A DNA stretch of 64,000 nucleotides from Actinokineospora enzanensis DSM 44649 (GTDB lineage: Bacteria > Actinomycetota > Actinomycetes > Mycobacteriales > Pseudonocardiaceae). Made by a program: the position numbers and the translations under genes. Under the pieces are notes generated by a model. That model saw nothing but the letters and a program-made list of their open reading frames with translations, did no database searches and was not told where the DNA came from. This document shows positions 1 through 7,653 of this stretch, piece by piece; position 1 is the stretch's first letter; each line of letters begins with the position of its first letter. Location: contig NZ_KB894404.1 of the NCBI RefSeq assembly GCF_000374445.1, positions 1 to 64,000 on the forward strand, written 5' to 3'.

Positions 1-38
1 GCCACCCCCACCCCAGCCACCCCCAACTGGACCACCAC

Positions 39-160
39 GCGGGATCGCGCCGGTCTCTTCCCACCCGATCCCGTGCGGCCCGGGGGGCCGAACGGGATCG
101 GGTGGGAAGAGACCGGCTAAAGGCGATCCCGCCGCGAGGCGAAGCCGAGCCAACAAACAC
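39..160. repeat. 122-bp hairpin repeat, copy 1
   Basis: Perfect 23-bp inverted arms at 51-73 and 93-115 enclose a 19-nt GC-rich loop (74-92) that can itself partly pair. A near-identical unit lies at 4822-4943. The left flank (GATCGCGC) and the right flank (gaggcgaagccgagccaac) are in the same orientation in both copies, but the loop of copy 2 is the exact reverse complement of this loop. No coding potential is apparent. It sits just upstream of the small gene that precedes glmS. It could be a REP or MITE-like element; mobility is inference. Confidence 0.85.
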
Positions 161-176
161 TGCCCGATATCGGGCA
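161..176. promoter_or_regulatory. perfect 16-bp palindrome upstream of the first gene
   Basis: The sequence tgcccgatatcgggca is its own reverse complement and lies 26 nt before the GTG of the following small gene. A second small hairpin (agagc-tt-gctct) follows at 178-189. This is a plausible operator, but no binding protein can be assigned. Confidence 0.35.
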
Positions 177-202
177 CAGAGCTTGCTCTCTCGGCCGTCA
201 AG

Positions 203-487
203 GTGTCAGGGTCTGGCGTGACCGAGTCACCGCCGTCGGATCTGGTCCGGCATGTAGTGGGCACCACCGGGCTGCCGCCCGAGGTGGCCGCCCGTGTCGT
301 GGCCGATGTCGTGGCCTATTTCGGGGAGACCGTCGAGCAGTACGTGCGGCGCAGGCACGGGGAGCTGCGCCGCGGGCAGCACCGCAACGCCGAGATCTGG
401 GCGTTGCTGCGCGCCGAGCTGGCCGCCCGGCCGGTGGCCGCGCCGCCGCTGAGCGAGCGGCAGCTGCGCAGGCTGGTCTACGGGTGA
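203..487 (+). CDS. small protein of unknown function upstream of glmS
   Basis: A 94-residue acidic-then-basic protein, probably cytoplasmic, with no signal peptide or membrane segment. The middle (about residues 30-75) is rich in Arg and Glu and looks helical; the end reads SERQLRRLVYG. The GTG at 203 is taken as start; a GTG at 218 is an equally plausible alternative. It ends 48 nt before the GTG of glmS on the same strand, so co-transcription is likely. The position beside glmS hints at a regulatory or housekeeping role, but I do not recognise a family and assign no function. Confidence 0.6.
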   Translation: MSGSGVTESPPSDLVRHVVGTTGLPPEVAARVVADVVAYFGETVEQYVRRRHGELRRGQHRNAEIWALLRAELAARPVAAPPLSERQLRRLVYG

Positions 488-535
488 GACCCGGGTCGAC
501 CCGGAAACAACTTCTACTGGCTGAGGGAGCCGCCT

Positions 536-2365
536 GTGTGTGGGATCGTCGGGTACATCGGGAGTCGGGTGGCCACGCCCGTGCTGGTCGAGGGGCTGCA
601 CCGGCTGGAGTACCGGGGCTACGACTCGGCCGGGGTGGCGGTGCTGCGCCGCGGCCGGATCACCGTGACCAAGGCCGCGGGCCGGGTCCGCGACCTGCGT
701 GAGCGGCTGGCCGAGTCGGCGCCGAGCCCGGCCACCGTGGGCATCGCGCACACCCGTTGGGCAACCCACGGCGAGCCGTCGGACCGCAACGCGCACCCGC
801 ATCTGGACGCCGAGGGCCGGATCGCGGTGGTGCACAACGGCATCATCGAGAACGCCGAGCAGCTGCGCGCCAAGCTGGTCGCGGACGGTGTCGAGCTGGT
901 GTCCGAGACCGACACCGAGGCGCTGGCGCACCTGATCGCCGCCGAGCTGGCCACCGCGCCCAGCCTGGAGGACGCGGTGCGGGCGGCGCTGCGCGGGGTG
1001 GAGGGCACCTACGGCCTGGTCGTGCTGGACCGTACCCGCCCGGACGAGCTGGTGGTCGCCCGCAACGGCAGCCCGATCGTGCTGGGCGTGGGCGACGGCG
1101 AGATGTTCGTCGCCTCGGACGTGGCCGCGCTGGTGCACCACACCCAGCGGGTGGTGTTCCTCGACGACGGTGAGCTGGCCACGGTGTCCGCAGGCGCGTA
1201 CCGTACGTCCACCCTGGACTCGCGGCGCACCAGCAAGGAGCCCACCACCGTCGACCTGGTCGCCGACGACTACGAGCTCGGCGGGCACAGCGACTTCATG
1301 CGCAAGGAGATGTACGAGCAGCCGGAGGCGATCGCGCGGGCGCTGCGCGGGCGGCTGGACGAGCGGTTCGCCACCGCGCACCTGGGTGGTCTCGGGCTGG
1401 ACCCGATGGCGCTGCGCGCGGTGAAGCGGGTCAAGTTCCTCGGCTGCGGCTCGGCCTACTACGCCGGTCAGATGGGCGCCACGCTGGTGGAGGAGCTGGC
1501 CAGGATCCCGGCCGACGCCGAGCCCGCCTCGGAGTTCCGCTACCGCAACCCGGTGGTCGACCCGGACGCCCTTTACGTGGCGATCTCCCAGTCCGGCGAG
1601 ACCCTGGACACCCTGGCCGCGGTGCAGGAGCTGCGCCGCAAGGGCGGGCTGGTGATCGGCGCGGTCAACGTGGTCGGCAGCGCGATCGCCCGCGAGTGCG
1701 GCAGCGGCGTGTTCCTGCACGCCGGTCCCGAGGTGTCGGTGGCCTCCACCAAGGCGCTGACCAACATGACCGTCTCGTTCGCCATGCTGGCGCTGCTGCT
1801 GGGCCGGGTGCGCGACCTGAGCGCGGCCGCCGGGCAGCGGATCGTGACCGGGCTGCGCGCGTTGCCCGAGCGGGTCGACGAGATCCTGGCCGGGGAGTCC
1901 GAGGTGGAGCGGATCGCCAAGCGGTTCGCGCACGCCCGGCACATGTTCTTCCTTGGCCGGGTGCGCGGCTGGCCGGTGGCCCGCGAGGGGGCGCAGAAGC
2001 TCAAGGAGATCTCCTACGTGCACGCCGAGGCCTACCAGTCCGCCGAGCTCAAGCACGGCCCGCTGGCGCTGATCGACGCCGAGATGCCCAGCGTGGTGAT
2101 CGTGCCGGAGGACGAGCTGCTGGCCAAGAACATCGGCACCATCGAGCAGATCCGCGCCCGCGGCGGCCCGGTCATCGCGGTCACCAACGCCGACCTGCCG
2201 GACGGGCTGGCCGACGAGGTGATCCGGGTGCCGCGCGGCGAGCCGGAGCTGGATCCGATCCTGCTCACCGTCCCCTTGCAGCTGCTCGCCTACCACACCG
2301 CCACCGCGCTGGGCCGCGACATCGACAAGCCGCGCAACCTGGCCAAGAGCGTCACCGTGGAGTAG
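536..2365 (+). CDS. glmS: glutamine--fructose-6-phosphate aminotransferase (isomerizing)
   Basis: This cytoplasmic enzyme makes glucosamine-6-phosphate from fructose-6-phosphate and glutamine, the first step towards UDP-GlcNAc for peptidoglycan. The 609 residues match the usual family length. The protein begins MCGIVGYIG, so Cys2 becomes the N-terminal nucleophile of the class II glutamine amidotransferase domain (about 1-220). Two SIS sugar-isomerase domains follow (about 285-600), with SQSGETLDT in the first and the end NLAKSVTVE typical of GlmS. The GTG start at 536 is fixed by the required N-terminal Cys and preceded by GAGGGAG. It probably shares a transcript with the small upstream gene. 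Nothing is missing. Confidence 0.97.
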   Translation: MCGIVGYIGSRVATPVLVEGLHRLEYRGYDSAGVAVLRRGRITVTKAAGRVRDLRERLAESAPSPATVGIAHTRWATHGEPSDRNAHPHLDAEGRIAVVHNGIIENAEQLRAKLVADGVELVSETDTEALAHLIAAELATAPSLEDAVRAALRGVEGTYGLVVLDRTRPDELVVARNGSPIVLGVGDGEMFVASDVAALVHHTQRVVFLDDGELATVSAGAYRTSTLDSRRTSKEPTTVDLVADDYELGGHSDFMRKEMYEQPEAIARALRGRLDERFATAHLGGLGLDPMALRAVKRVKFLGCGSAYYAGQMGATLVEELARIPADAEPASEFRYRNPVVDPDALYVAISQSGETLDTLAAVQELRRKGGLVIGAVNVVGSAIARECGSGVFLHAGPEVSVASTKALTNMTVSFAMLALLLGRVRDLSAAAGQRIVTGLRALPERVDEILAGESEVERIAKRFAHARHMFFLGRVRGWPVAREGAQKLKEISYVHAEAYQSAELKHGPLALIDAEMPSVVIVPEDELLAKNIGTIEQIRARGGPVIAVTNADLPDGLADEVIRVPRGEPELDPILLTVPLQLLAYHTATALGRDIDKPRNLAKSVTVE

Positions 2366-2372
2366 TGCGAAC

Positions 2373-2434
2373 GGGATGGTCAAGGGGTGCCATACCAACC
2401 GGATACCCACCCTTGAGCAACCCTTGCCCATCCC
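2373..2434 (+). terminator. candidate terminator hairpin after glmS
   Basis: Imperfect inverted repeat: gggatggtcaaggggt (2373-2388) pairs with acccttgcccatccc (2420-2434), with a 31-nt loop, followed by a short T-rich run. It starts 7 nt after the glmS stop and lies before the metalloprotease leader. The long loop makes it weaker than the other terminators in this window. Confidence 0.45.
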
Positions 2435-2555
2435 TTTGTAATATTCACCGTTCGCCATGTGACACCTAGTTTCCACGCACCGGCCCGTTTGCCCGTGTCG
2501 TGCCGCGAGGCACGCCGGGTCCCCTGTCCTTCCGGGCCGGTGAAGGAGAAACGAC

Positions 2556-4694
2556 ATGTCACGCAAGGCTGTGGTCGCTGCCGCGACCGCGGTGGCGACC
2601 GCCGCGGCGGGCGTGGTCATCGGGGTGACCGCCTCATCGGCGGGCGCTGCGCAGGACCAGCCCACCCGCGGCGCCAAGGCGCTGAGCCCGCAGGCACGGG
2701 CGTCCGAGTTGGACCGCGCAGGCGCGGAAGCCGACTCGACCGCCCGCGCGCTCGGCCTGGGCGCCAAGGAGAAGCTCGTCGCCAAGGACGTCGTCGTGGA
2801 CAACGACGGCACCCGGCACGTCCGCTACGACCGTACCTACGACGCGCTGCCGGTGGTCGGCGGCGACATCGTGGTGCACCGCGCCGCGGACGGCCGGATC
2901 AGCACCACCGACAAGGCGACCGGCGAGACGATCAACGTCCCGACGGTCACCCCCGCGATCGCGGCCCCCAAGGCCGCCGCCGCGGCGCCCGCGCTGACCG
3001 CGGAGAACAAGACCGGCACGGCGAAGCCCGAGCTGGTCGTCTACGCGGTCAACCGCAAGCCGGTCCTGGCCTACCGCACCACCGTCGAGGGCGGCGGCGC
3101 GGAGGTCGTGGTCACCGACGCGGCCACCGGCGCGCTGCTCGACCGCTATGAGAAGCGGCACCAGGCCACCGGCAACGGCTACCACGTCGGCACGGTGGAC
3201 ATCTCCACCAGCGGCAGCGCGGGCAACTACACCCTGACCGACACCACCCGCGGCAACACCCGGGTGCTCGACGGCAACGGCGGCTCGGAGAACAGCCCGT
3301 CCTCCCGCGCCACCGCCTACACCGACGCCGACAACGTGTGGGGCAACGGCCAGCTCAGCAACCGCCAGACCATCGCCGTGGACGCGTACTACGGCCTGGC
3401 GAAGACCTGGGACTTCTACAAGAACACCTACGGCCGCAACGGCATCCGCAACAACGGCCAGGGCCACACGATGTACGTCCACATCGGATCCGGCCTGCTC
3501 AACGCCTTCTACGACGACTCCTGCTTCTGCATGGTCTTCGGCGATGGCAGCTCGCAGAACGGGAACACCCCGCTGACCCAGATCGACGTGGTCGGCCACG
3601 AGATGACCCACGGCGTCACCGCGGCCACGGCGAACCTCAACTACTCCGGCGAGTCCGGCGGCCTCAACGAGTCCGCCAGCGACATCTTCGGCACCATGGT
3701 CGAGTTCTCCGCGAACAACCCCAACGACCCGGGTGACTACTACATCGGCGAGAAGCTGCGCATGCCCACCGGGTACTTCCGGCGCATGGACAACCCCGCC
3801 GCCGACGGCAGCAGCCTCGGCTGCTGGAACAGCAGCGCGGGCTCGGTCGACGTGCACTACTCCTCGGGCATCGGCAACCGCTGGTTCTACCTGGCGTCCG
3901 AGGGCACCGGTGCGAAGACCATCGGTGGGCTCTCGCACAACGGTGGTACCTGCAATGGCACCACGTTTGCGGGCGTCGGTCGGGACAAGGCCGCGGCGAT
4001 CTTCTACCGGGCGCTGAGCACCTACATGACGTCGACCACGAACTACTCCGGGGCGCGCACCGCGACCCTGCAGGCCGCCGCCGACCTGTACGGGTCCGGC
4101 AGCCAGGAGCGGTACCTGGTCAGCGTCGCGTGGGCCGCGGTGAGTGTGGGCACGGCACTGCCGCCGCCCACCACGACCACCACCCGTCCGACGAGCACCA
4201 CGAGCCCGACCGGCCCGACCAACCCGACCACCACCACGACCACCACGACCACGCCGCCGACCGGCAACGCGGTCCGCAACGGTGACTTCGAGTCCGGCCA
4301 GACCGGCTGGAACGAGTCCGCGGTGGTCACCAACAACACCCAGCAGACGCCGCATGGTGGTTCGTACTACGCGTGGCTGTTGGGCAATGGCAGCACCGCG
4401 AGCGAGTCGATCAGCCAGCAGGTCGCCGTGCCGTCCACGGGGACGCCTACTCTGCGGTACTGGTTGAAGATCACTACGCAGGAGACCGGCAGCACGGCCT
4501 ACGACGTACTGCGGGTGCAGGTCAACGGGACGACGTTGACCACGTACTCCAACGCGAACGCGGGGACCGGGTATGTGCAGCGGGTGCTGGATCTGTCCGC
4601 CTACCGGGGACAGACGGTGACGTTGCGGTTCGCCGGGGTGGAAGACGCGTACCTGGCGACCAACTTCCTGGTTGATGACGTGAGTATCGGATAG
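2556..4694 (+). CDS. secreted M4 (thermolysin-like) zinc metalloprotease
   Basis: A preproenzyme of 712 residues. A signal peptide (about 1-32, ending SSAGAAQ) is followed by an FTP/PepSY-type propeptide (about 40-200) that normally inhibits and folds the enzyme. The M4 catalytic domain spans about 205-530. The zinc site is HEMTH (His348, Glu349, His352) with the third ligand Glu372 in NESASD, all intact. A Thr/Pro-rich linker (about 533-570) leads to a C-terminal beta-sandwich-like module (about 573-712, opening NGDFESG) that may bind substrate or cell wall. The ATG at 2556 follows GAAGGAGAA at 2542. It is expected to be exported by Sec and self-processed outside the cell. Confidence 0.95.
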   Translation: MSRKAVVAAATAVATAAAGVVIGVTASSAGAAQDQPTRGAKALSPQARASELDRAGAEADSTARALGLGAKEKLVAKDVVVDNDGTRHVRYDRTYDALPVVGGDIVVHRAADGRISTTDKATGETINVPTVTPAIAAPKAAAAAPALTAENKTGTAKPELVVYAVNRKPVLAYRTTVEGGGAEVVVTDAATGALLDRYEKRHQATGNGYHVGTVDISTSGSAGNYTLTDTTRGNTRVLDGNGGSENSPSSRATAYTDADNVWGNGQLSNRQTIAVDAYYGLAKTWDFYKNTYGRNGIRNNGQGHTMYVHIGSGLLNAFYDDSCFCMVFGDGSSQNGNTPLTQIDVVGHEMTHGVTAATANLNYSGESGGLNESASDIFGTMVEFSANNPNDPGDYYIGEKLRMPTGYFRRMDNPAADGSSLGCWNSSAGSVDVHYSSGIGNRWFYLASEGTGAKTIGGLSHNGGTCNGTTFAGVGRDKAAAIFYRALSTYMTSTTNYSGARTATLQAAADLYGSGSQERYLVSVAWAAVSVGTALPPPTTTTTRPTSTTSPTGPTNPTTTTTTTTTPPTGNAVRNGDFESGQTGWNESAVVTNNTQQTPHGGSYYAWLLGNGSTASESISQQVAVPSTGTPTLRYWLKITTQETGSTAYDVLRVQVNGTTLTTYSNANAGTGYVQRVLDLSAYRGQTVTLRFAGVEDAYLATNFLVDDVSIG

Positions 4695-4704
4695 TTCTCT
4701 TTGC

Positions 4705-4742
4705 CCCCGTTCTCCGGCGGCGGCACTGCCGGAGAACGGGGC
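4705..4742 (+). terminator. terminator after the M4 protease
   Basis: Stem of about 14 bp: ccccgttctccggc (4705-4718) pairs with gccggagaacgggg, loop ggcggcact. It begins 10 nt after the stop codon. There is no T-tract, as is usual for actinobacterial hairpins. Confidence 0.75.
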
Positions 4743-4821
4743 AATGGGCCCTGGGGTTCTGGGTAGTCGAGACACCCTCCTCTCTCTTCCCCCCCTTCCC
4801 CCCCAACCCCCTCCCCCCACC

Positions 4822-4943
4822 GCGAGATCGCGCCGGTCTCTTCCCACCCGATCCCGTTCGGCCCCCCGGGCCGCACGGGATCGGGTGGGAAGAGACCGGC
4901 TGAAAGCGATCGAGCCGCGAGGCGAAGCCGAGCCAACAAGCAC
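4822..4943. repeat. 122-bp hairpin repeat, copy 2 (loop inverted)
   Basis: Arms at 4834-4856 and 4876-4898 are identical to those of the copy at 39-160. The 19-nt loop (4857-4875) is the exact reverse complement of the loop in copy 1, while the outer flanks keep the same orientation. A pyrimidine-rich tract (about 4773-4822) precedes it. The unit ends 31 nt before the start of the LAL regulator gene and may affect its leader or promoter. Confidence 0.85.
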
Positions 4944-4974
4944 AGCGTGTTGGTGGTTGGGTACGTTCTCGGGC

Positions 4975-7653
4975 ATGTCGGCGCTGACTCCGGTTCTTGG
5001 GCGGGCCTCGGTGATCGCTCGTGGGCGGGTGGGGTTGGTCGACGGGGGCGGGGTGGTGTTGTTCGGGGCTGGGGGGATCGGGAAGTCGCTGCTGGTCGAG
5101 AGGCTGGTGGGGGAGTCCGGTGTGGAGCTGGTGCTGCGCACCTCGCCCGCGGTGGCTGATCGGGGGTTGCCGTATGTGGCCCTGTTCGATCTGTTCGCCA
5201 AGGTGTTGGGGACGTCCGGGGTGCGGTTGCCCGCGCATTTGAGGGCCGCGCTCGATGCGGCGTTGTTGCGGGCGGCGCCGGATCGGCCGGTTGATCCGTT
5301 GGCGTTGCGGTTGGCCGTGGTCGATCTGCTGCGGGGGCTCACCGAGCGTGGGTCGGTGTTGTTGGTCATCGACGACGCGCAGTGGCTGGATGCGGCGAGT
5401 GCGGATGTGCTTGCGTTTGCGGCGCGCAGGCTGGCTGAGCATCCGGTGCGGGTGTTGGTGGCCGAGCGTGCTGATGGTGGGCCGACGCGTACCGACCTGG
5501 TCCCGGCGCCCGCGGTCGAGGTCGAGGTGTCCGGGTTGGACGAGGAGACCACCGCCGAGTTGCTGCGTACGCGGTTGGAGCAGCCGTTGCAGCCGGACAT
5601 CATCGCGCGGGTGGCGCGGGCCAGTGGCGGGAATCCGTTCTACGCGCTGGAGCTGGGGCGTGCCCTGGTCCGGCATGGCACGGTCGGGGCGGATGAGCCG
5701 TTACCGGTGCCGGATCGGCTGCGTGAGCTGGTCGGTGACCGGTTGGCGGAGCTGCCCGAGCAGGCTTGGGAGGTGCTGCGGCTGGTGACCGTGGCCGTTC
5801 GGCCTGGGCTCGATCTGTTACCCCTGGGCGACCCCGGGCTCGCCGCCGCCCGTGCCACCGGGGTGTTGGTGGCCGACCAGGACGGTGCGTTGCGGTTCGG
5901 GCATCCGTTGCTGGGGGAGATCGTGTCCGCGGCGGCCACGCCGGAGCAGCGGATGGCCGCGCACGCGGCGATGGCGGCCGTGGTCACCGACCCGATCGAA
6001 CGGGCCCGGCACCGCGCGCTGGCCACGCCGAGGCCGGACGCGCCGATCGCGGGTGAGCTGGTCGAGGCCGCTCGGCTGGCCACCGCGCGCGGCGCCCCGG
6101 CGACCGCCGCCGACCTGCTGAGACTTGCCGCGCACCGCACGCCCGCGGCCGGACCGCGCGGGGAGCGGCTGCTGGCCGCCGCGCGTGCCGCCACCGACGC
6201 CGGACTCACCGATACCGCCGCTGACCTGTGCCGCGCGGTGATCCGCACGGCCACCGGCGCGACCCGCGCGTGGGCGCGGTTGCAGCTGTTCGACCTCGCG
6301 GGCCGCGACATCGTGGCCGTCACCGGGCTGCTCGACGAGGTCGCCGCCGACGCGGGCGACGACCCGGGCCTGCGCGCGGCGGTCGTGCTGCGCCGCGCCG
6401 AGGTCGGCACCAACCTCGGGCACCTCGCCGAGGTGCAGGCGCTGCTGGACGAGGCAGACGAGCTGGCCGCGCGCGCGGGTGACCCGGACCTGTCCACCCG
6501 GGCGCTGATCATGCGCATCCCGTTCGCCGCCACCGCCGGGCCCGAGGTCGAGTCGGACCTGCTCGGCAGGCTGGAGCGGCACACCGCCGACCTGCCGCTG
6601 TCCGAGTCGGTGGTGTTCTCCCGGCTCTACCTGGCGGTGATCAGCCTGCGCCGGGGCGCCACCTCCCGCGCGGTGGAGCTGCTGGAGCGGCTGCGGCACG
6701 AGACCGAGGTGGCGGGCCGGGTCCGCGACGAGATCATGGTGCTGTACTCGCTGACCTCCGCCTACGAGCGCGCGGGCCGCTGCGCCGACGTCCGCCGCAC
6801 CGCCCTGCTCGGCGCGCGGCTGCGGGTGGACGTCGACCGGCACCCGGGCGTCGGCCTGACCATGCGGGCCATCGCCGAGCTGAACACCGGCGGCCTCGCC
6901 GAGGCGACCACGCTGCTGGAGCGCGCCGCGGCGGCCGACGAGCAGGCCCGCGACAGCGAGTGGGCCGCCTACGCCAACGGTTTACGCGGTCGGGTCGCCT
7001 TCCTGCAGGGGGACTTTCGCGCGGCGGCCCGGTTGCTCGGGATCTGCCGACGGACCTTGCACGACATCGGCTTCCCGGACCCCGCGCTGTTCCTGGTGGA
7101 CGCCGACCTGGTCGAGTCGCTGGCCTGGTCGGGCGGCACCGACCAGGCCGCGGAGACCCTGCGCGACGCCCGCGCCCGGGTCGCCGCCCAGGGCCGCACG
7201 GTGATCACCCTCGGGCTGGACCGTGCCGCCGCGGTGCTCGCCGCGATCACCGGCGACCCGCGCGGCGGCGCGGACGCCCTGCGCGCCGCCATCCCCAAGT
7301 CCCACCCGTACCCGCTGGAGCTGGCCCGCGCCTGGTTCACCCTGGGCGTGCTGGAACGCCGCTCGCGCCGCAAGGCCGCCGCCCGTGACGCCCTGGCGGA
7401 GGCGCTGAACCGCTACACCGCCGCCGGGTGCCTGCCATGGGTGGAGCGCGTCGCCCAGGAGGTGGCCAAAGTGGACGCGCCGGACGCGCCACTGTCCGAG
7501 TTGGAGCACCGGATCCTCGACCAGCTCCGGGATGGCGCCACCAACCGGCAGATCGCCGCCGCCCTGCACCTGTCGGTGAAGGCGGTGGAGGCCAACCTCA
7601 CCCGCCTCTACCGGAAACTCGGGGTCCGCAACCGCGCCGAACTGCCTTTGTAG
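4975..7653 (+). CDS. large ATP-binding LuxR-family (LAL-type) transcriptional regulator
   Basis: A cytoplasmic regulator of 892 residues with LAL architecture: an N-terminal AAA/NACHT-like ATPase, a long helical (TPR-like) middle region, and a C-terminal LuxR helix-turn-helix (about 835-890). Walker A is GAGGIGKS at 31-38; a Walker B-like LLVIDDAQW lies near 128-137. The ATG at 4975 is chosen because the P-loop should lie close to the N-terminus. Three TTA codons (5701, 5818, 6982) suggest dependence on the bldA leucyl-tRNA. The gene stands alone between hairpin repeat copy 2 and a convergent membrane gene; its target genes cannot be read from the sequence. Such proteins often activate secondary metabolism or sugar uptake. 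Confidence 0.9.
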   Translation: MSALTPVLGRASVIARGRVGLVDGGGVVLFGAGGIGKSLLVERLVGESGVELVLRTSPAVADRGLPYVALFDLFAKVLGTSGVRLPAHLRAALDAALLRAAPDRPVDPLALRLAVVDLLRGLTERGSVLLVIDDAQWLDAASADVLAFAARRLAEHPVRVLVAERADGGPTRTDLVPAPAVEVEVSGLDEETTAELLRTRLEQPLQPDIIARVARASGGNPFYALELGRALVRHGTVGADEPLPVPDRLRELVGDRLAELPEQAWEVLRLVTVAVRPGLDLLPLGDPGLAAARATGVLVADQDGALRFGHPLLGEIVSAAATPEQRMAAHAAMAAVVTDPIERARHRALATPRPDAPIAGELVEAARLATARGAPATAADLLRLAAHRTPAAGPRGERLLAAARAATDAGLTDTAADLCRAVIRTATGATRAWARLQLFDLAGRDIVAVTGLLDEVAADAGDDPGLRAAVVLRRAEVGTNLGHLAEVQALLDEADELAARAGDPDLSTRALIMRIPFAATAGPEVESDLLGRLERHTADLPLSESVVFSRLYLAVISLRRGATSRAVELLERLRHETEVAGRVRDEIMVLYSLTSAYERAGRCADVRRTALLGARLRVDVDRHPGVGLTMRAIAELNTGGLAEATTLLERAAAADEQARDSEWAAYANGLRGRVAFLQGDFRAAARLLGICRRTLHDIGFPDPALFLVDADLVESLAWSGGTDQAAETLRDARARVAAQGRTVITLGLDRAAAVLAAITGDPRGGADALRAAIPKSHPYPLELARAWFTLGVLERRSRRKAAARDALAEALNRYTAAGCLPWVERVAQEVAKVDAPDAPLSELEHRILDQLRDGATNRQIAAALHLSVKAVEANLTRLYRKLGVRNRAELPL

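Follow-up and report, generated by a model that had tools for sequence, protein, structure and literature searches.

Small hairpin-associated inversions are found in chloroplast DNA, where the loop of a non-coding stem-loop changes its orientation relative to the arms. The repeats described here resemble them in the flip of a loop between its arms and in their location in non-coding DNA, and they differ in lying on a bacterial chromosome, in belonging to a multicopy element, and in forming a larger structured unit.

Template switching between inverted repeats gives rise both to homogenization of the arms and to inversion of the spacer, and the mechanism prefers long arms, as set out in the parts of two reports considered here (PMC8604942, PMC8794818). 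With inverted repeats in yeast, inversion of the spacer was seen only with arms of >9 bp and in one case was accompanied by arm conversion, according to the portion of the first report on which we draw (PMC8604942). Our case is like those in the same portions of the two reports in the exact inversion of the spacer, in the preference for long arms, and in the homogenization of arms that sometimes occurs alongside (PMC8604942, PMC8794818), and unlike them in that the inversions are deduced from dispersed copies of a bacterial repeat rather than from orthologous genes. With regard to the repeat itself, REP elements with RAYT, which carry GTAG or CGTC tags, are likewise palindromic, present in many copies, and patchy among species as described in the section of the source consulted (PMC3733652), whereas the present unit is ~124 nt long, contains two hairpins, has the ends GCGRG and CACNG, and occurs without a Y1 transposase in the two genomes searched for one (G000 and G010). 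The 127-bp RU-1 (ERIC-like) repeat and other enterobacterial MITE-like repeats are similar in size and also dispersed in many copies, to judge from the excerpt of the source used here (PMC2759123); in contrast to them, neither target duplication nor terminal inverted repeats were detected for our repeat. The mutational process discussed below is a known one, and the repeat family was not found described in the sources searched, which for the open PMC literature were judged by title or the start of the abstract.

Two repeat copies with opposite loops

The window, meaning the whole stretch of DNA analysed, comprises positions 1 to 64,000 of contig C2 (C2:1-64000) in an 8.1-Mb assembly of 87 contigs, for which we use the label G000; other contigs of this assembly are designated C1, C60, and so on, repeat elements are numbered with the prefix L, and genomes with the prefix G. 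Direct repeats at 38–163 and 4821–4946 of the window are 90% identical. Within them, positions 49–117 and 4832–4900 are exact reverse complements (100% over 69 nt) between co-oriented flanks, so that the two co-oriented hairpin units with reverse-complementary loops reported in the preliminary description were borne out. A hairpin forms within each copy, with 97% complementary arms at 49–81/85–117 and 4832–4864/4868–4900. The perfect arms span 26 bp (49–74/92–117 in copy 1 and 4832–4857/4875–4900 in copy 2) and enclose asymmetric 17-nt cores at 75–91 and 4858–4874, respectively; the 23-bp arms and 19-nt loop given previously denote this same feature with the arms drawn slightly short. When 21 nt are taken as the core, GTGCGGCCCGGGGGGCCGAAC is the exact reverse complement of GTTCGGCCCCCCGGGCCGCAC, and the two differ at five positions.

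Copy 1 (L001), delimited by repeat search at 39–162 on the + strand, consists of a main hairpin with an inverted loop, a small 3' hairpin, and a tail ending in CACTG, and its nearest copies in a search of this genome with copy 1 are 93–94% identical. Its inner hairpin (49–117, +) contains a G·A mismatch at the seventh pair counted from the loop, and its core (75–91, +), with the centre GGCCCGGGGGGCC, is in the rare, inverted orientation. Folding placed a one-sided bulge, TAAAG, at 118–122 (+), which is present in relatives, and a small 3' hairpin region preceding the tail at 134–150 (+), of which helix 4 covaries in relatives. Copy 2 (L028), likewise delimited by repeat search at 4822–4945 (+), has the canonical loop; sequence comparison identified its inner hairpin (4832–4900, +) as the exact reverse complement of 49–117, and its core (4858–4874, +), with the centre GGCCCCCCGGGCC, is in the common orientation. 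The orientation of the flanks is fixed because the bulge and the small 3' hairpin lie on the right in both copies. Given that the inner stem is a palindrome, inversion alters only the small core. Folding scores relative to shuffled sequences were z = −11.5 for copy 1 and −10.3 for copy 2, with 0 of 200 shuffles folding equally well.

The pair represents two of about 37–38 copies of a dispersed ~124-nt repeat in G000. Copy 1 as query matched 82 times in this genome, both strands counted, and a right-arm pattern allowing ≤3 mismatches gave 40 matches, of which 38 fall at sites recognized as whole or fragmentary copies. All copy numbers are minimum values, because 40 of the 94 first-look candidates from the copy-1 search of G000, and 17 per genome in the family sample, were scored. 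The units are 123–129 nt long, start with GCGRG, and mostly end with CACNG. At two contig ends, L037 shares 92 nt with L021, and a single copy divided between contigs may account for both. Contigs of G000 that end in or beside the repeat are C1, C2, C5, C17, C22, C29, C30, and C68. Among damaged copies in G000 is L038, which has lost the hairpin; other hairpin-less copies include L070, L076, L078, L082, and L186. A degenerate C-rich repeat of ~15 nt, similar to CAACTCGACCACCCC, precedes many copies in G000, for example at window positions 1–38 and before L037, and is not obvious upstream of the copies in G010.

In the window, copy 1 is followed by an ORF of 94 amino acids with 0 Pfam matches (203–487), a glmS-like gene with GATase and SIS domains (536–2365), and a gene for a thermolysin-type M4 peptidase (2556–4694). 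Copy 2 precedes a gene for an AAA/LuxR-type regulator (4975–7653), whose frame stays open from 4744 through the whole of copy 2; 4975 is the likely start, 23 residues ahead of the conserved AAA domain. According to a heuristic ORF call at 32 places in G000, the repeat lies between ORFs at 25 and overlaps one at 7, the latter including both window copies, which overlap because the ORF starts were extended. The same heuristic ORFs showed mixed gene orientations beside the copies, and a role as terminator between convergent genes was rejected given that neighbours occur in all orientations at these 32 places.

Loop inversion and its explanations

Among the 38 entries in G000 with a complete inner hairpin, the loop is canonical relative to the flank in 35 and inverted in 3, namely L001 (window 39–162), L006 (C1:20804), and L022 (C60:12350). 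Two pairs of copies are exact 69-nt reverse complements, L001/L028 with arms CCCACCCGATCCC and L006/L026 with arms CCAGCCCGATCAC. Since these arms differ, at least two events took place in G000, if arms were not exchanged. The cores of L006 and L026 differ in three adjacent bases and nothing else. The core of L022 is inverted as in L001 apart from one base, and the two elements may share one inversion event. In L022 the left outer arm, GCGGGATGCTTTTGAGCCGG, matches the reverse complement of the right arm exactly, bulge included, and 47 pairs form within the unit with one mismatch, near the loop.

Inversion was also found in Saccharothrix with another loop, GATCACGCTTTTCGATC versus GATCGAAAAGCGTGATC. 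Across 25 genomes of this genus, a pattern of the canonical loop plus CGACT gave 121 matches and the inverted pattern gave five, of which three represent canonical copies seen from the opposite side, and two are real: L164, identical with L270 (G162), and L269 (G240). Genus g20 (7 genomes) has stems interrupted by internal loops; its main loop class gave 69 canonical matches (62 distinct by position) and one in the inverted form, which is a canonical copy read backwards, so that no real inversion was found for that class. The loop patterns for Saccharothrix and g20 each detect one loop class. The remaining fetched elements with a readable loop showed no inversion, with 11 ambiguous and 5 in genera without a class. 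L170 and L221 had been called inverted automatically; by eye both have the canonical core (GCTTTT and CCTA), nearly a palindrome in the reference used, and they were excluded from the count. The loop is thus not fixed relative to the flank in every other copy, the inverted orientation being present in 3 of 38 entries on two arm sequences in G000 and in two Saccharothrix elements. The search of the whole genome and of relatives for the arm, suggested at the outset, yielded copies and both orientations in G000, whereas the exact arm sequence occurred in 0 stretches of other species.

The five inverted copies had stem scores of 22.1 to 43.5, higher than those of the 169 others (p = 5e-4 by one-sided Mann-Whitney, in a test devised after the data had been seen and treating L001 and L022 as independent, which they may not be). 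A score of ≥28 was reached by 4 of 5 inverted copies and 9 of 169 others (Fisher p = 9e-5); the score misplaces the apex in some elements with large loops. Within G000 the corresponding test gave p = 0.0026, and within Saccharothrix p = 0.09, which is not significant. The arms differ in sequence among L001, L006, L164, and L269. Inverted copies therefore have pairing, not a fixed site, in common, and by this post hoc score their arms are long and well paired.

The two units belong to a dispersed palindromic repeat that is probably mobile, and we consider it likely that the loop of copy 1 was flipped by rare template switching at its long, well-paired hairpin, with no regulatory switch involved. 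On sequence comparison, template switching between inverted repeats fits the loop inversions best. A polymerase copying one arm would jump onto the other strand by way of the complementary arm, take the loop sequence from that strand, and return to its first template in the other arm. Equal hops would flip the loop and inner arms in place, as proposed for L001, L006, and L269, and unequal hops would additionally copy one arm onto the other, as proposed for L022. Such an event would presumably be rare per replication and would depend on the pairing of the arms, independent of any particular sequence. The spacer is exactly reverse-complemented between the arms with unchanged flanks, a change that in the L006 pair amounts to three adjacent core bases.

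Arm homogenization in L022 is non-reciprocal. A double switch with unequal hops would flip the inner part together with its mismatch and homogenize the outer part, as in L022, whereas reciprocal recombination between the arms would flip without homogenizing; L022 therefore points to template switching. The arm-to-arm recombination envisaged in the preliminary description is thus not favoured, given that both the arm copying in L022 and the well-paired stems argue for template switching. Inversion followed later by homogenization may have generated the same product in two steps. In Saccharothrix, some copies combine a TGAG right arm with a canonical loop, which suggests that arm correction also occurs without inversion. 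The left arm of G010 copies retains an unpaired GGACTGA, and the left arms of G000 copies look homogenized by comparison. The inversions are read from copies at separate loci. Multicopy hairpins with a polar loop may offer a built-in tally of template-switch mutation in wild bacteria, with every copy recording its own loop flip and L022 representing the unequal-hop kind.

An assembly artefact, in which palindromic arms allowed a short-read assembler to traverse the loop in the wrong direction, is an unlikely source of the inversions. All five come from assemblies of multiple contigs, only 38 nt separate copy 1 from the end of its contig, and several contigs of G000 end in or beside the repeat. 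Assembly also becomes more difficult as palindromes lengthen, and this by itself would produce the association with stem score. However, orientation is lost only if k does not exceed the symmetric arm, longer k-mers fixing it, and the symmetric arms measure 26 nt (L001), 33 nt (L006), about 41 nt (L022), 32 nt (L164), and 20 nt (L269). In addition, L004 and L012 were assembled between unique flanks even though they are identical across 124 nt, a coin flip would leave about half of the copies inverted rather than 3 of 38, and L022 carries private bases in its arms and core. Assemblies known to comprise ≤5 contigs contain no inversion beside 85 canonical copies, compared with 5 beside 145 elsewhere (p = 0.16, not significant), the latter group including several Saccharothrix genomes without a contig number.

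Less probable still is an origin without inversion, whether by substitutions that arose independently or from two old subfamilies that differ in their loops. Loop classes do exist (AGGAGGCC.. and GTTCGGCC..), cores also vary by point changes, and only three adjacent core bases separate L006 from L026. Against this, all five positions that differ between L001 and L028 do so as inversion predicts, and the same relation is found on other arms and, with the GATCACGCTTTTCGATC versus GATCGAAAAGCGTGATC loop, in Saccharothrix. Least probable, in our judgment very much so, is an enzyme-driven invertible switch in which a site-specific recombinase acts on the arms and regulates neighbouring genes: both orientations are present in one genome, copy 1 lies upstream of the small ORF, and the regulator's likely start follows directly after copy 2, but orientation is strongly biased (35 of 38 canonical), the arms of inverted copies are unrelated in sequence, so that no fixed recombination site is evident, and a reciprocal exchange would not yield the copied arm of L022. 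Of the earlier proposal of a switch or loop-inverting activity, then, the inversion of the loop relative to the flank stands, and the activity itself is disfavoured by this bias and by the differing arms. A scan for sigma-70-type promoters found no promoter-like site in window 1–5200, so that nothing here shows an effect of loop orientation on neighbouring genes, and the suggested change in transcription of the small gene and the LAL regulator gains no support.

The wider repeat family and its possible mobility

Of 15 further genomes from the genus, G010 alone showed clear matches, at about 75% identity, and it contains 11 full-length copies plus several with the hairpin lost; G003 and G007 gave one short match each. 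A covariance model, R1, was built from the 11 G010 copies, and a second, R2, from 59 matches to R1. With R1, matches were obtained in 29 of 200 sampled Pseudonocardiaceae genomes, G000 included, and in 8 of 46 genera, among which are Lentzea (g8) and Saccharothrix (g22), both Pseudonocardiaceae; 123 elements from outside G000 and G010 were inspected among the R1 matches listed. With R2, 150 genomes of the order gave one match, the window's own, under filters stricter than those of the family search, and at least 18 of the 149 others belong to the same family, Pseudonocardiaceae. A search for plasmid carriage of the repeat gave 0 matches in 72,556 records.

The fold comprises two hairpins and manifests strong covariation. 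When the 11 G010 copies were aligned without structure, 97.9% of cells paired and 13 of 43 pairs changed on both sides. In A5, an alignment of 58 distinct sequences made with the model, 96.7% paired, 39 of 43 pairs changed on both sides, and 0 of 500 shuffles showed covariation as high, values that lean towards structure because R1 came from the 11 G010 copies and R2 from R1 matches. Alignments A3 and A4 hold reverse-strand matches and were left out of the models. Paired columns of A5 contain 50 G·T cells and 4 A·C cells (16 versus 4 by pair column), and the 11 G010 copies alone contain 16 versus 5, with 11 of these 16 at one fixed position. The excess of G·T, which is inflated by kinship and model scoring, gives a hint that the structure belongs to one strand in particular. 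Comparison of copies at 13 loci in 8 genera with Rfam gave 0 families at the gathering score; the best sub-threshold hit, mir-4436 (E 2.4e-7, 46.1 bits versus a cut-off of 74), was rejected, as it looks like a generic hairpin match. In some genus g20 elements, a second small 3' hairpin and tail lie within the apical loop, as in L161 (363–520, G176), L198, and L204.

Copies sit in scattered unique flanks and their distribution is patchy, which, together with one comparison of occupied and empty sites, suggests that the repeat is mobile. The rplK-rplA spacer measures 184 nt in G000, 137 nt in G225, and 166 nt in G021, which represent three genera, and ends in all of them with ACACAGTGGGAG, compared with 11–54 nt in 21 other genomes measured. 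In G000 the insert is at C9:207032-207157 (L032, L121; see also L096 and L136), between genes that we take to be rplK and rplA. Two of these inserts belong to the repeat family, and that of G021 resembles it at the right end alone.

Among 135 elements, matching flanks of the sort that target duplication would leave were not in excess, and the ends of the repeat are not complementary. A MITE of a DDE transposon was provisionally rejected given that no terminal inverted repeat and no target-site duplication were found, the exact left boundary being uncertain. The Y1 transposase domain PF01797 was found in neither of two genomes (G000 and G010) by a search that detected the control in 5 of 14 known genomes. 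With no PF01797 in these genomes and units of 123–129 nt, assignment to REP/RAYT was likewise rejected; rather than a palindrome of 20–40 bp with a terminal tetranucleotide tag, the unit has a GCGRG start and mostly a CACNG end. No mobilizing enzyme was recognized.

Covariation in 8 genera, the excess of G·T over A·C, the lack of detected target duplication, and the rplK-rplA inserts lead us to propose, tentatively and with more doubt than confidence, that Pseudonocardiaceae harbour a hitherto undescribed class of small mobile elements that would move as a structured single strand, perhaps RNA. If this is so, loop orientation would be a natural record of template-switch events. A structured, patchy repeat family with strong covariation and without a recognized mobilizing enzyme is in any case directly testable.

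Copies arranged head to tail in tandem were observed for L152 and L153 (G034), L151 (G215), and L117 (G167), with a spacing of about 131–136 nt where measured, and the tandem junction in G215 is ACACAGCGAGG. A right-end fragment of the repeat (L079, 191–224, G010) lies shortly downstream of a gene that is presumably for 5S rRNA.
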